A DNA stretch of 64,000 nt from Multifurca ochricompacta (taxonomy: Eukaryota > Basidiomycota > Agaricomycetes > Russulales > Russulaceae). Positions 21,641 through 54,761 of this stretch are shown piece by piece; position 1 is the first letter of the stretch, and every line of letters begins with the position of its first letter. A program made the position numbers and the translations under genes. The notes beneath the pieces were generated by a model. That model saw nothing but the letters and a program-made list of their open reading frames with translations. It was not told where the DNA came from and did no database searches. Location: positions 88,322-152,321 of the forward strand of contig WTXG01000083.1 in the NCBI GenBank assembly GCA_022496185.1. The letters are read 5' to 3'.

Positions 21641-24317
21641 ATGTTCTCCTTCCTCCGCTCCCCTCAAGCTGGCCGCTCCAGTGGTTCCGCAGATACTGCG
21701 GAGTATTATAACGAGAAGGAACCAGGCGTTGTGGGAGAGAAAGCCGACACAGCGCTAGACTCAGACTTGGCCTCAGATGTCAACGCTGGCGATCTCACCT
21801 TTGAGGAGGGTAAGTCACCTTCGAGCCCACTCTCCCAGACGACTTCCCTCACCCCATCTGTCTTACTAATAGCTACCGCTGGTGGAATGGGTCGCCACTT
21901 GGGCGTCTTTAGTTGCACTTTGATGATGTATGTATCCCATCTCGATATTCACTCTCCTTCTCACCAACTTGGTATCCAGTATCGGTCGTATCATCGGAAC
22001 CGGCATATTCTCAACTCCATCAAGCATCCTTGGCTCCGTCGGATCTGTCGGCGCGTCTCTAATGCTTTGGGTAGCCGGTCTCTTCCTGTCATTTTGTGGG
22101 CTCTTTGTCTGGCTAGAGCTTGGTACCATGTTCCCGCGTTCCGGAGGTGAAAAGGTGTACCTCGAGGCCATATATCGTCGGCCAAAGTATCTCGCGACCG
22201 TTATCTTCGCCGCAAATGCTATCATCCTTGGTTTTTCAGCAGGCAACTGTATCGTAAGTGCATTTCCTATTCCTAATAGGTCTGTAGTCTGAGCGACTCA
22301 TCACGTGATTTGGTTCCAGGTCTTCGCCCAGAAGTATGTGAAAATTAGAGGCTTTTCATTTATCACAACATCTGACAAGCCCATAAAGCATACTCGTCAC
22401 TGCAGGACATCACCCTGAACGTTGGGTGGTTCGCGGAATAGCTATTGGAGGTGCGTGATCTCGTTGTCCCTAGAACCCTATCTGAGATGCGTTCAGTGAT
22501 TGTCTTCACGACCATTCTACATGGTTTTACCCCGCGATTGGGCGTGTACGTCATGAATGTGGGGTCTTTTCTTTCATACATAAAAACGAAAGTACGCTCA
22601 CACTTGAATCAGGGGTTAACCCTCATCAAAACATTTATCCTTACATTTATCGTCGTTACTGGTAAGCTATCAACTTGAGGAACCATGACTGTGGTGCTAT
22701 TTAGGACTCCGACAGGCTGGGTTGTCCTTGCGGTAAAACCCGTATCAAAGATCCGCACCTGAATTTCCACCATGCATTTGCTGGCAGCTCTCATAGTAGC
22801 AATGACGTTCGCACTTTCCGCCCCTACTCAATATCTTTTACCGACGTCCCTGTAGTATGCAACAGCGATGTTCAAAGTCATTTTCACCTATGCCGGGTGG
22901 AACGGGGTAAATTATGTCCTTAATGATGTCAAGAATCCAGTGCGCACTCTTAAGATTGCGGGACCCCTCGGACTTGGCATCACATCAGCATTGTACATTT
23001 TCGCGAACATCGCATACTTTGCGTAAGTACACCTTCAGCAAAGAAAATCACTGGGCCATGACATCTCTGCATGCAGCGCGGTTTCGAAAAAGGATATTCT
23101 GAAGTCTGGGACAACAGTTGCTTCACTGTTTTTCAGGAATGTGTTTGGCACTCAGGCTCAAAAGGCGCTCACGGCTTTTGTGGCTTTAAGGTACGTACTC
23201 GGTTTCCACTTGACTCTCCCAGTCAGAAATTAATTAGGAAGTGCGTGGCAGTGCTTTAGGGTGAGTGATCGTGATATTCGCGCGATGGTCAGTTTAATAA
23301 TGTCGCCGATAACCATCAATGGGTCACAGGGTGAGCATCTAGTTGGAGAACCTGATAACGCCCGCTGATGACAGATGCAGAACATCATCACGGTGGTACT
23401 TCTATAATTTCTGGCTCACCTTACATGAGTTTAAAGAGCACTTTAGACCTACCATGCTGCACGTGTGAACCAAGAGCTCGCGAAGGGGGGTGTACCACTG
23501 CCATTTGGTAACCGTCTGTGGGCGTCAAACTGGCCCACCCAGAAAGCTCCATTACCTGGGTTAATTATTCATCTCATTCCTTCTGTAAGTTTCCAGGTCT
23601 TCCTTTGACGACCGTACCCTTCATTCACGTCGTTCAGGTGATCGTCATCATCGCACCTCCACCACAGGTTGCGTATCCTTTCATCTTGGACGTTGCAGGG
23701 TACCCAGAGCAGATCATTAATTTATTCATCATTCTTGTACGCGCGCCTTCGCTTGAGCCGTCCTTGCACCTTCTCTGACCGAATGCGAAACAGGGTCTAT
23801 TCTATCTCCGGTGGGCTAAACCCAATTTGCAACGTCCATTTAAAGGCACTTCTCGTCGATCGTGTCTTAGCTTCATTTCACAACTGACTAAAACGGATAT
23901 AGTGTGGCTACCCTTTGCATTCTTCTTCCTCGCAGTCGACGCCTTCCGTACGTCTCTACGCGTTTTATACCCACAGTTTTCTTCTCATATTTTCCAACGC
24001 TGATCATGGGGATGGCAGTACTCATTGCTCCATTTGTACGCCCTGCCAATAAGGTCGGCGATACCCCGCCGCTCCCGTATTATCTCTACTGCCTGATCGG
24101 AATCGCGGTCATGGTAGTTGGGGTACTTTACTGGGCCGTCTGGCAACTGGTGCTGCCACACGTGTTCAAATTCAGGCTGGTTCCGAGGAAGGAGACCCTC
24201 GGGGACGGAACTGTGGTCACTGTGGTGAGTGGACTCTGCGGCAGGCTGTGCTCTACAGGTGATAAACCGGGACTGACGATAATTTTAATTCAGTTTTCGA
24301 AAGAGAAGGTAGAATGA
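21641..24317 (+). pseudogene. MUP1-type permease copy 1, one-base frameshift
   Basis: An APC-superfamily transporter of the kind annotated as high-affinity methionine permease in fungi. Nineteen exons can be laid out, matching copy 2 (30960-33605) in length for 17 of them. Key segments are IIGTGIFSTPSSILGSVGSVGASLMLW (membrane helix 1 region, near 21990), FPRSGGEKVYLEA, YATAMFKVIFTYAGW and APPPQVAYPFILDV. The last exon ends FSKEKVE at 24317. Exon 8 (22716-22806) is 91 nt where copy 2 has 92. The deletion falls where copy 2 has TCGGGTAAAA and this copy has GCGGTAAAA (near 22733). It leads within ten codons to TGA, in the middle of the transporter. All splice sites look functional, so the loss is either very recent or a base-calling error. 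The intron after exon 16 starts with GC. Confidence 0.75.
23252..23395 (+). other. Micro-exon cluster (9, 1 and 15 nt), permease copy 1
   Basis: Exon 11 is 23252-23260 (T-GCT-TTA-GG). A GTGAGT intron ends in TCACAG at 23329, the single base G at 23330 is exon 12, and a GTGAGC intron ends in TGCAG at 23380. Exon 13 is 23381-23395 (Asn-Ile-Ile-Thr-Val). The single base completes a Gly codon. Reading past the first donor gives TGA in frame, so splicing is required. The same arrangement occurs in copy 2. Confidence 0.65.
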
Positions 24318-30959: not shown

Positions 30960-33605
30960 ATGTCCACCACCCTCAACACTTTCCTCCGTTCCAGAAATCC
31001 TGTCGATCCCGGTGATTCTGATAGCAAGAAAGATTTAGGTTTTGTGGTGGAAAATACGGATGTCGGCTTTGATTCAGACTTGGCATCGGATATCAACCCT
31101 GGTGAACTCACATTTGATGAGGGTAAGTCATCGATGCTCTCTGCCTTCGTGCGGTTCGATTGAGATGTTAACTAGACACCGCCGGTGGAATGGGGCGCCA
31201 TTTGGGTGTCTTCAGCTGCACAATGCTCATGTACTGCTCTTATTTCCATTCTATATCATGCCTTTCTTACCTTGCGGGCAGCGTCGGTTCTATCATCGGT
31301 ACTGGCATATTCTCTACACCATCGTCCATCCTCGGATCAGTCGGTTCCGTCGGCGCATCCCTAATGCTTTGGGTAGCTGGCCTCTTGCTTTCATTCTGTG
31401 GGCTCTTTGTTTGGCTAGAATTTGGTACTATGTTCCCACGCTCTGGAGGGGAGAAGGTTTACCTTGAGGCTGTATACCGCCGTCCGAAACATCTCGCTAC
31501 CGTTGTCTTTGCGGCAAATGCAATCATCCTTAATTTCTCATCCAGTAACTGTATCGTAAGTCACTTCCCTGAGATACCTTCGGTACCTGCTACACGATTC
31601 ACCCCAGGTCTTTGCTGAGAAGTTTGTATCCGGTATATATACTCATACAATGAGAGCATCTGACGTCCCCGAAAAGTATACTTCTTTCCGCAGGGCGTAC
31701 CGCCGATCTTTGGGCTGTGCGGGGGATAGCCATCGGAGGTAAATGGCTTCCTAGTTTGTCAGCACGCCAACTCAGTCCCATCCAGTCATCGTCTTCACGG
31801 TCTCTCTTCATGGATTCGCCCCGAGATTAGGCGTATATGTCATGAATGCTAGTAGAAATCCCTCTATCCCCTCGATGAGAAATTCTGACATACCCGCCAG
31901 GTGTTGACGCTCTTCAAAATAATTATACTCCTATTCATCGTGGTCACTGGTAAAGTATATCCTCTTGAAGGCGCTACTTGTGATCTCATCCGAGGCTAAG
32001 GCTGGGTCGTCCTCTCGGGTAAAACTAGTGTTGAGGATCCGCACGCGAATTTCCGCCATGCCTTTGCAGGTAGCTCGAATAATAGTAACGACGTTAGTGA
32101 TACTTAACCTTGTCTCAGCATGATCCATTGATGTCGCACTAGTACGCAACCGCAATGTTTAAAGTCCTTTTCTCTTATGCTGGATGGCAAGACGCGAATT
32201 ACGTTCTCAATGAAGTCAAGGATCCAGTGCGCACAATCAAGATTGCAGGACCTCTTGGACTTGGAATCACCTCTGCTCTGTACATTTTCGCTAACATCGC
32301 ATACTTCGCGTACGTGCTAGTCTATAACGCGCTTTGGTCAGTGACTTGTTCACGAACGGGATCTACGCAGCGCATCCTCCAAGGCAGATATCTTGAAGTC
32401 TGGCACAACAGTTGCTTCATTGTTTTTCGGGAACGTTTTTGGAACCAACGCACAGAAGGCATTGACGGTCTTCGTAGCTCTGAGGTATGTTCTTGGTGCT
32501 GCTGTGGTGTCATGGATTGTGAACTGAACTGCCCAACAGTGCTTTAGGGTGAGTAAATGTGAAGCTCCTGCGTCATGATATGATATTCATTACTCTTCTG
32601 CTCGGCAATTCCTATAGGGTGAGTATCCAGTTTCAGATGTTGAAAAGATGTGTCTAATGACAACTTCAGAGCGTTCTCACTATGGTGCACTTTGCAACGC
32701 CCTGCTTCAGCTTACGTGCGCTGATATGCCATCCCAGGCTTACAGTGCCGCTCGTGTGAACCAAGAGCTCGCGAAGGAGGGTATACCGCTGCCATTTGGT
32801 AACCGCATTTGGGCCTCGAACTGGCCAACACAAAACGCGCCGTTTCCAGGACTTATTGTACACCTAATTAGCACAGTAAGTAAGCAGTTGTCTCTCTAAC
32901 GAACCTATCCAACTCGTTCACAAGGTCATTGTCATCATCGCCCCCCCACCGCAAGTTGCCTATCCCTTTATCTTAGATGTCTCAGGGTATCCAGAGCAGA
33001 TCATCGACCTCTTTGTCATTCTCGTACGTGTGCGCTTTGAACTGGGACTTCCTTCCGCCACTTCTTCTAACTAATTTCAAAATATAGGGTCTATTCTATC
33101 TCCGCTGGGCCAAGCCCCGCTTGCCCCGGCCGTTCAAAGGCACTTTCGCTTTAAACTCATCTCGATATATCAATCCAATGGCTAATACGAAATTACGCAG
33201 TGTGGCTCCCTCTGGCATTTTTATTCCTAGTAGCCGAAGCATTCTGTGCGACTTTATAGACACACCATCCTCACCTTTCAAGGAGTTGACATAACTTGTC
33301 TAACAGTGCTTGTGGCGCCGTTCATACGCCCGCCCGATGGAATCGGCGACACACCGCCACTGCCTTACTACCTGTACTGCCTCATCGGAATCGCCGTCAT
33401 GGTGGTCGGAATGCTTTATTGGGCCGTTTGGAAATTAGCATTTCCATACATCTTTGGCTTTTGCCTCGTTCCCAGGAAGGAAACACTGCCAGACGGGACT
33501 GTGGTCACCCTGGCGAGTCTGCTTTTTCTGTGATATAGATTATGTGTTTTTCTGAAGCTGACTGAACTCTTGTAATTCAAGTTCTCCCGCGAAAAGGTGA
33601 AATGA
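30960..33605 (+). CDS. MUP1-type (methionine) amino-acid permease, copy 2
   Basis: An APC-superfamily plasma-membrane amino-acid transporter, best compared with fungal high-affinity methionine permeases. Nineteen exons (30960-31122, 31176-31230, 31282-31555, 31608-31621, 31677-31738, 31786-31847, 31901-31949, 32001-32092, 32143-32309, 32371-32484, 32540-32548, 32618, 32670-32684, 32738-32875, 32925-33023, 33088-33139, 33201-33245, 33307-33512, 33582-33605) total 1641 nt, 546 residues with no internal stop. The N-terminal 60 residues are hydrophilic. The first helix carries the unwound-helix motif GSIIGTGIFSTPS. FPRSGGEKVYLEA, FSYAGWQDANYVLNEVKDP, VNQELAKEG and APPPQVAYPFILDV follow, with about 12 hydrophobic segments. 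Three introns start with GC instead of GT (31848, 33140, 33513). Substrate is inferred from family resemblance only. Paralog of 21641-24317. Confidence 0.85.
32540..32684 (+). other. Micro-exon cluster (9, 1 and 15 nt), permease copy 2
   Basis: Exon 11 is 32540-32548 (T-GCT-TTA-GG). A 69-nt GTGAGT intron ends in CTATAG, the single base G at 32618 is exon 12, a 51-nt GTGAGT intron follows, and exon 13 is 32670-32684 (Ser-Val-Leu-Thr-Met). With the single base the whole gene is an exact codon multiple; without it the frame fails, unless the next acceptor is moved two bases to CAGAG, which drops one residue. Confidence 0.65.
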
Positions 33606-53020: not shown

Positions 53021-54761
53021 ATGCCAGCAATCCGTACGCGTGACACTCCCACACAATGTGAGTCGACCACTCAATCTACCCATCCCCCCACCCCCCACCA
53101 CCACCACCACCCATTACGATCGATCTCTTACCTCTCTCTTTTCAAGCCCTCGAAGTGTCCGTGGCTGAGCCCGACACAAATGCACCCATCCTAAACATCA
53201 TCTCTCCGACGCCGCGCGCCTTCACGTTTCCTATGAACCCCCACACTCCTTCGCCTTCCCCGTCCAACTCACCGTTTGAGCCTGATCTCAGACCGCTCAC
53301 GTTCTCTACCCCTCCTCCTTTCAACAAGACCCACACCCCATCCTCTTCCATCTCCTCAAATCATTCCCTCTCTTTGACTACCTCTACCACCCTCTCCCCA
53401 GAAGCTCCCGCCACCCCATCGAGCTCTCATCGTCGTAGGCGTTCCACAGTGTCCGATATCAGCGAACGCCGACCAAAGAAGGGTGACGAGGATTATATCA
53501 AGCGGCCCGAAAACGCTTTCATCTTGTTCCGCCGTAAATGCTGCGAGGACCGTAATCTGGCGCAGGGCGCTGGAGATGCGGGCGGCGAGGGCGGCGATGG
53601 GCCTGCAGCCCCTACTAAGAAGCAACGTCAGGCAGATCTATCAAAGACAATCAGCCAACAGTGGAAAAGTCTCTCAACTGAGGAACGTCAGTACTGGGAG
53701 GATCTCGCAAAGGAAAAGAAGGTACGTTTCTATATTTATTTATGCATTGTGCATTGTGCATTGTGCATGCATGCATGCATGGCTCCTTCCTGAAACTCAT
53801 CACGTGACCATAGAAAGAGCATGAAGTATTATATCCCAACTATGTTTACCGTCCTCAGCGTGTTAAGGGCAAGAAGGTTGCTGCCAATGGCAAGGGAAAG
53901 GCACGTGGTGGTGGTGAAGAGCCAGAGACAGATACCGAAGGCCTCTCGTTTGTGATGCCTGTCCCTGCTGCACCCCAGCGTGTCGGCCGACGGGCTATCT
54001 CCGCACCGACACCTCCACCCGCATACCAACAGACGATCCGCATCCCAAAGATGTACATGCCCTCGACGCCGACCACGCCCTCGATGATGCCCATATCAAT
54101 CGCACGCACCTGCTCGTCACCTCAAGCCTCCACACAACTCTCTCCTGGTGGCATGGGCTACGATTACGTCCCACCCAACGGTGCTCTCCTGCCATCCTTC
54201 AATCAGCCACAGGGTTGGAATCCTGACGGTGTGACATGCGGGGACGCATACGTGAACGTGTTTGACATGCCGCCTCTCGACCCGCTTACGATCCCACCCG
54301 TCGTATCAACCGACTCGTTGTTCAAGTCGCCCTCGCCTGGCTCATACTCAACCTCTTCGGGGCCATCATCGCCACATATGTCCCCTTACACGCCGACGAC
54401 ACTTGAGACGCTTCACATTACGAATGACGCATGGCAGGCGCAGACGACGCTTCCGATGTTCGACGTGCATTTGGAGTCCCAGCTACCTCTCTCTCTCGAG
54501 TATCAGCCCTACTCATGGTCGACAGCACCTGATTTGTGGGTGAATGGAAGTGCGCCGATGTTTAACGAGGACTTTGATATTTCCATGATCCCGCCCATTT
54601 CGATTGAAGTTCCCAAGTTTGATGGCGTGATGCACATCGGGGACCACACGTGTGGGCAAGACTTCCTTAGTCCACAATCGGGTGAGCAAGATGGAGATGG
54701 GTACGCACCTGTGTTCACTTTCAACGATGTACCCGAAATCCCACTCGTGGACGGCTTCTGA
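53021..54761 (+). CDS. HMG-box transcription factor (gene 2)
   Basis: Three exons (53021-53057, 53147-53721, 53814-54761) total 1560 nt, 519 residues, in phase. It starts MPAIRTRDTPTQ in a 37-nt first exon. A Pro/Ser/Thr-rich region leads to an HMG box from about residue 115: DYIKRPENAFILFRRKCCED, an Ala/Gly-rich insertion of about 25 residues, then KQRQADLSKTISQQWKSLS, YWEDLAKEKKKEHEVLYPNY and VYRPQR. This is the MATA/ROX1-like type found in basidiomycete developmental and mating regulators (Prf1, Pcc1 and Rfg1/Rox1 relatives); exact orthology cannot be decided here. The remaining 300 residues are Pro/Ser-rich and acidic, fitting an activation or repression domain. Intron 2 falls within the box, after EKK. 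Unlike HMG gene 1 there is no frame break. Confidence 0.88.

Follow-up and report, generated by a model that had tools for sequence, protein, structure and literature searches.

A predicted single-nucleotide exon within a 9-1-15 micro-exon row in two paralogous MUP1-like permease genes of the mushroom Multifurca ochricompacta

Exons of a single nucleotide have been found for few nuclear genes in the open-licence literature, in which mitochondrial cases also appear. According to the accessible portions of the reports, they occur in APC11 of land plants, Arabidopsis included (Guo and Liu 2015, PMC4674806; PMC8831610), in VPS55 (PMC8831610) and in CYP621A of Fusarium (PMC12940212), the latter being presented by Nelson and Syed (2026) as the first in a fungal gene (PMC12940212). 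In the same literature, judged by titles and the beginnings of abstracts, no single-nucleotide exon of a basidiomycete was found.

Here we describe a locus of the mushroom Multifurca ochricompacta (Russulales, Russulaceae), in which base G32618 of a MUP1-like permease gene (copy 2) very likely represents a constitutive exon of one nucleotide, forming the third base of a conserved Gly codon within a transmembrane segment. As in APC11, one base is placed between AG and GT, is essential for the frame, was missed by annotation and has long been conserved; APC11 differs in being a plant gene in which the base is an A preceded by an intron of 333 nt and is proven by cDNA and mutation, and the accessible part of the report describes no micro-exon row comparable to the 9-1-15 row of copy 2 (PMC4674806). 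VPS55, as far as its report is accessible, shares with copy 2 the single-nucleotide exon, the misannotation, a GTRAGT donor and its nature as a membrane protein gene, but is a plant gene with RNA-seq and RT-PCR support that produces isoforms with and without the exon (PMC8831610). CYP621A is likewise a fungal nuclear gene with wrong annotation, in which a G in AGGGT context contributes to the Gly codon of a conserved motif and the introns are short (139 nt in total in F. graminearum); unlike copy 2, it is a P450 gene of Ascomycota, the base is the central one of the Gly codon and SRA reads confirm it, and no adjacent 9- and 15-nt exons are reported in the accessible text (PMC12940212). The description of such exons as very rare in any eukaryote, given in an earlier reading of the sequence alone (the sequence-only reading), is fair as to rarity, while the kind itself is already in print, at least in the accessible parts of the three reports. 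We regard copy 2 as a well-supported predicted case that extends this known rare kind to a new gene and, within the literature searched, to a new phylum, the unusual aspects being its apparent conservation in paralogs and its position between predicted exons of 9 and 15 nt.

The gene is located in a window of 64 kb, the whole stretch of DNA that was analysed (bases 88,322-152,321 of the 152,321-base contig C588; assembly of 53.8 Mb). Neither Rfam nor ARAGORN gave a match within this window. Among ten open frames submitted to Pfam, the sole match was an HMG box (PF00505) in the open frame 53062-53790. The features of copy 2 are as follows (window coordinates).

30960..33605, + strand: copy 2, MUP1-like amino-acid permease gene, 19 exons, CDS 1641 nt (546 aa)
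32371..32484, + strand: exon 10 (114 nt), 3' end ..GCTCTGAG (spliced model)
32485..32539, + strand: intron 10 (55 nt), donor score 9.1, acceptor 9.2
32540..32548, + strand: exon 11, 9-nt micro-exon TGCTTTAGG, identical in copy 1
32549..32617, + strand: intron 11 (69 nt), gtgagt...ctatag, donor 7.5, acceptor 5.3
32618..32618, + strand: exon 12, predicted 1-nt exon G, third base of Gly codon GG^G (sequence, model and parse enumeration; same in copy 1)
32619..32669, + strand: intron 12 (51 nt), gtgagt...cttcag, branch-like CTAAT near the 3' end, donor 7.5, acceptor 2.8
32670..32684, + strand: exon 13, 15-nt micro-exon AGCGTTCTCACTATG (spliced model)
32685..32737, + strand: intron 13 (53 nt; spliced model)
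32738..32875, + strand: exon 14 (138 nt), starting AYSAARVNQELAKEG... (spliced model)

In the spliced model, exons 1-10 measure 163, 55, 274, 14, 62, 62, 49, 92, 167 and 114 nt and exons 11-19 measure 9, 1, 15, 138, 99, 52, 45, 206 and 24 nt, adding up to 1641 nt, or 546 codons plus stop in a single open frame, over a genomic span of 2646 bases. This independent model reproduces both the 19 exons of 1641 nt and the 9-1-15 row with its G between CTATAG and GTGAGT put forward in the sequence-only reading. Joined, the cluster reads CTG AG^T GCT TTA GG^G^AGC GTT CTC ACT ATG (exon junctions marked by ^), so that, as had been proposed, S A L G S V L T M follows L; introns 11 and 12 are situated one base apart, at GG^G and GGG^AGC, and the predicted joined tag across the cluster is ..GCTCTGAG-TGCTTTAGG-G-AGCGTTCTC... 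The flanking introns of 69 and 51 nt are of ordinary size; the other 32 introns of the two copies range from 46 to 71 nt. By its Pfam match (PF13520 AA_permease_2, E 2.1e-86, 291 bits against a cut-off of 27), copy 2 belongs to the MUP1-like amino-acid permeases (AA_permease_2, APC superfamily), and many relatives found in the protein search bear the name "high affinity methionine permease"; the Pfam test, the search query and the family alignment were based on a 543-aa draft and not on the final 546-aa model. The search with this draft also assigned the public M. ochricompacta records P0001 (92% identity) to copy 2 and P0056 (72%) to copy 1.

Copy 1 is a tandem paralog on the same strand about 9 kb upstream of copy 2, with the following features.

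21641..24317, + strand: copy 1, tandem paralog sharing the 19-exon layout of copy 2, exon 8 being 91 nt vs 92
23252..23260, + strand: 9-nt exon TGCTTTAGG (spliced model)
23330..23330, + strand: predicted 1-nt exon G, cacag^G^gtgagc (spliced model)
23381..23395, + strand: 15-nt exon AACATCATCACGGTG (spliced model)

The 9-1-15 layout (23252-23395) occurs at the same codon in copy 1, where the G is flanked by introns of 69 and 50 nt, compared to 69 and 51 nt in copy 2, and the joined cluster encodes SALGNIITV. Between the copies, dS is 1.41 and dN 0.117, giving a dN/dS of 0.083 (461 codons from all exons except 1 and 8, which differ in length); synonymous sites are therefore near saturation and the protein is retained under purifying selection. 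Intron 11 of copy 1 aligned to that of copy 2 no better than shuffled sequence (score 4.0; mean of 50 shuffles 2.65, maximum 9.5). Introns 12, 14 and 15 of the 18, in contrast, beat all 50 shuffles (intron 12 with 14.0 vs a maximum of 9.0), so some intron sequence is still alike, and that intron 12 adjoins the G counts against our reading. Nevertheless, the presence of AG-G-GTGAG at one codon in both copies is hard to ascribe to recency alone.

The arrangement also stands out by its motifs. YAGGGTGAG occurs four times in the 64-kb window, each time at a splice site of one of the two clusters, compared to 0.92 occurrences expected in the window, and only one of 100 shuffles reached four. The composite pattern AGGGTGAGT-N45-75-AGGGTGAG was found twice in the 53.8-Mb genome, in copies 1 and 2, compared to about 0.19 expected at equal base frequencies, and the reversed-pattern control gave no hit in the same 53.8 Mb.

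G32618 has three of the properties by which a single-nucleotide exon may be recognised: it is one base between the AG and the GT of two acceptable introns, it is conserved between the homologous copies 1 and 2, and it is needed for the frame and for conserved protein length, as indicated by length markers and the family. Skipping it, which fuses both introns into one of 121 nt, leads to a frameshift and an early stop, and stops also result from retaining intron 11 or intron 12; the fused intron would be longer than any of the other 32 in the two copies. We enumerated the possible parses of the region, admitting at most five introns per chain, all of the GT-AG type, 40-300 nt long and with splice sites scoring above -2, based on splice-site matrices built from these 32 introns. 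With a protein profile of 95 relatives (both Multifurca records excluded) that were picked for an S[AC][LIV]G[NSG]-like motif, so that the profile favours this motif, the 9-1-15 parse ranked first in both copies: at 169.4 (next 159.1) among 1120 in-frame, stop-free peptides from 17404 chains in copy 2, and at 172.5 (next 165.9) among 647 such peptides from 11640 chains in copy 1. The runner-up also contains a 1-nt exon in both copies, and among the best 14 parses shown, 9-1-15 has the highest summed splice score in each. Parses without a 1-nt exon never reached the profile score of 9-1-15 within the stated limits, the best for copy 1 being 161.7 among the best 14 rows. The intron 12 acceptors are modest (2.8 in copy 2, 2.2 in copy 1), which counts against the 9-1-15 parse.

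The best parse found for copy 2 without a 1-nt exon uses the acceptor at 32671, which is below the enumeration threshold and was scored separately. It assumes a single 123-nt intron (32549-32671) ending in a CAGAG acceptor inside the exon, the 32548-32672 junction that the sequence-only reading had named as alternative, and yields SALG-VLTM, one residue shorter, in frame and stop-free with a profile score of 162.3. We consider this parse improbable: the acceptor scores -3.7 vs 2.8 for 32669, the profile score is about 7 bits lower (162.3 vs 169.4), copy 1 has AAC without AG at the matching position, and the intron lies beyond the 46-71 nt range of the 32 others. Homologous permeases agree with the 9-1-15 parse at this site: the paralog has the same layout, and regular relatives keep the residue that would be dropped through 32671.

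Support for the length of the motif comes also from proteins beyond the two copies. A third, diverged MUP-like permease of the same genome (C584:468000-473000, L021) is intronless at the motif and carries it as uninterrupted GTCGCTCTGAGTTGTGTAGGAAACATTGTC (VALSCVGNIV), with VALSCVGNIVS read in one frame. Solved b0,+AT chains (animal) align without gaps at VALSALGSVL (VAFSTIGAAN) in all three alignments printed, the query being the first 537 residues of the 543-aa draft. In an alignment of 120 relatives, insertions of at least 2 residues in at least 4 sequences outside the N-terminus occur only at SALG^N (9 of 120), and columns missing in at least 9 sequences are confined to the N-terminal region and a single site close to the C-terminus.

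We further compared 147 relatives, taken from the best 120 of each of two protein searches, comprising 128 genome-derived models and 19 short-contig relatives, which come solely from lgn or jgi and lie on contigs 1.8-4.7 kb long. All 19 short-contig relatives exhibit the expected motif compared to 85 of the 128 genome-derived models (Fisher p 0.001; as the species are related, the rows are not independent). Conversely, the SALG^N junction is irregular in a third of the genome-derived Agaricomycetes models (43 of 128) and in none of the 19 short-contig relatives; a motif regular expression had flagged 45 models, of which P0086 and P0112 carry the motif on inspection, and P0133, P0135, P0144 and P0146, checked separately, are irregular. 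Thirteen short-contig relatives have contigs that do not exceed 2.5 kb and fall short of the 2646-base span of copy 2; these are probably cDNA, whereas the six others (2.8-4.7 kb) could be genomic. P0006, P0007 and P0009 are examples of probable cDNAs. With only the 13 shortest-contig relatives, the Fisher p is 0.01, again for related species whose rows are not independent. The public protein records of both Multifurca copies lack all three micro-exons (..VALRYVLGAAVLTCADMPSQAYS.. and ..VALRYTYHAAR..). Searches for fungal DNA of other species yielded 36 pattern matches in viral contigs, none of which was confirmed, and 12 loci in genome contigs, all in bacterial records and set aside. As to which of the two introns the relatives possess, patterns such as Q-N or R-N preceding the Asn codon in their faulty models are suggestive but point both ways. 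Taken together, the paralog, the uninterrupted paralog, the family length, the splice parsing and the short-contig relatives support the sequence-only reading in its view of a real 1-nt exon.

A second way to read the cluster keeps the G and skips the 9-nt exon, either always or in a regulated isoform, so that exon 10 is followed by the G and the 15-nt exon and VALR-SVLTM results. The skipped 9 nt correspond to three codons, so the product is in frame and stop-free, and database models of three relatives (P0020, P0077, P0105) show VALR-NVIT. This is very improbable given a profile score of 151.9 vs 169.4, the need for a 133-nt intron and the full motif in all 19 short-contig relatives, and it would still require the 1-nt exon.

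We hold it to be just as improbable that copy 2 is a decaying pseudogene with a fortuitous fit. In favour of decay, three of the 18 introns of copy 2 are of the GC-AG type (at 31848, 33140 and 33513), all required by the 19-exon model, a point that is absent from the sequence-only reading and counts against the 1-nt exon. Copy 1 has one GC-AG intron of 18 (at 23846), the one after FK (33140/23846, gcactt) being common to both copies, while 31848 and 33513 are GT in copy 1. In addition, exon 8 of copy 1 (22716-22806) is one base shorter than that of copy 2, an apparent frameshift that may reflect a recent pseudogene or an assembly error; the public record P0056 omits the start of this exon. Copy 1 may now be dead, which counts against the 1-nt exon as best explanation. 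Against decay of copy 2, however, stand its frame, open over 19 exons, the dN/dS of 0.083 between the copies and the layout common to both. Least probable of all is a stwintron (spliceosomal twin intron), in which intron 11 would interrupt the donor of a larger intron and G32618 would be intronic: in the accessible literature, fungal stwintrons resemble copy 2 in having adjacent introns that are necessarily removed one after the other, but their internal intron splits a signal of the outer one, and a [D1,2] split would require a T right after the internal AG, whereas removal of intron 11 (32549-32617) gives TGCTTTAGG-GGTGAGT, whose sole donor GT at 32619 leaves G32618 in the mRNA between two complete introns, so that the sequence already contradicts a donor-type stwintron.

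How would a single-nucleotide exon at G32618 be spliced? We infer that the two introns are probably removed in succession, each by intron definition. In AG-G-GTGAGT, the acceptor site of intron 11 overlaps with the donor site of intron 12, and joint occupancy would hardly be possible. U2AF and U2 bind the acceptor and U1 binds the donor; with both sites one base apart, these factors should not fit at the same time, rendering exon definition implausible, while introns of 51 and 69 nt are suited to intron definition. One intron would be removed first and leave a normal splice site for the other, and either order would work: removal of intron 11 would give TTTAGGG^GTGAGT, that of intron 12 ctatag^GAGC. 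Intron 12 carries CTAAT or CTGAT near its 3' end in both copies; a CTRAY-type branch motif is absent from intron 11 of copy 2, and intron 11 of copy 1 has only TTAAT, well upstream, a point against the 1-nt exon. The difference between the two introns mildly suggests, as a weak indication, that intron 12 may be removed before intron 11. For APC11, Guo and Liu likewise suggest intron definition with successive removal and find exon definition implausible, according to the accessible part of their report (PMC4674806).

A tree of 28 proteins places copy 2 in a group of 11 rows (support 100/99) together with five proteins from Lactarius, one copy from Lactifluus, one from Russula ochroleuca and three short-contig proteins, and copy 1 branches outside this group; the input was the corrected 546-aa copy 2, the public P0056 for copy 1 and, for the remainder, public records that include faulty models. 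Provided that this tree is correct, the duplication and the exon are older than the separation of these genera. The 9-1-15 arrangement most likely arose before the duplication of copies 1 and 2 and before Lactarius, Lactifluus, Russula and Multifurca separated, and the 1-nt exon probably predates the genera Lactarius, Lactifluus and Russula. More tentatively, and with slightly less than an even chance in our estimate, the common ancestor of the Russulaceae copies already had the exon, and the orthologs of Russula, Lactarius and Lactifluus have kept it, which would help to explain why 9 of 12 Russulaceae genome-derived models, both Multifurca copies counted in, are faulty at precisely this motif. 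The other three (P0002, P0003 and P0008) show the normal motif; as a gene finder unable to place a 1-nt exon should fail there, their regularity counts against the exon in these genes. Several relatives' models moreover read ..R-N.., as though no intron separated the G from the Asn codon (G-AAC) and the genes had one intron fewer; both observations argue against universal retention.

If retention in these orthologs is true, few single-base exons of fungi would be as old or as widely retained as this one, which lies within a 9-1-15 row whose central base would have to be spliced sequentially. At one motif of this transporter family, annotation errors recur (43 of 128 genome-derived models vs none of 19 short-contig relatives). 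For the row of micro-exons, intron definition with successive splicing is a plausible route. If real, this mushroom case in two paralogs with synonymous sites near saturation would mean that single-nucleotide exons can be stable and can sit among other micro-exons.
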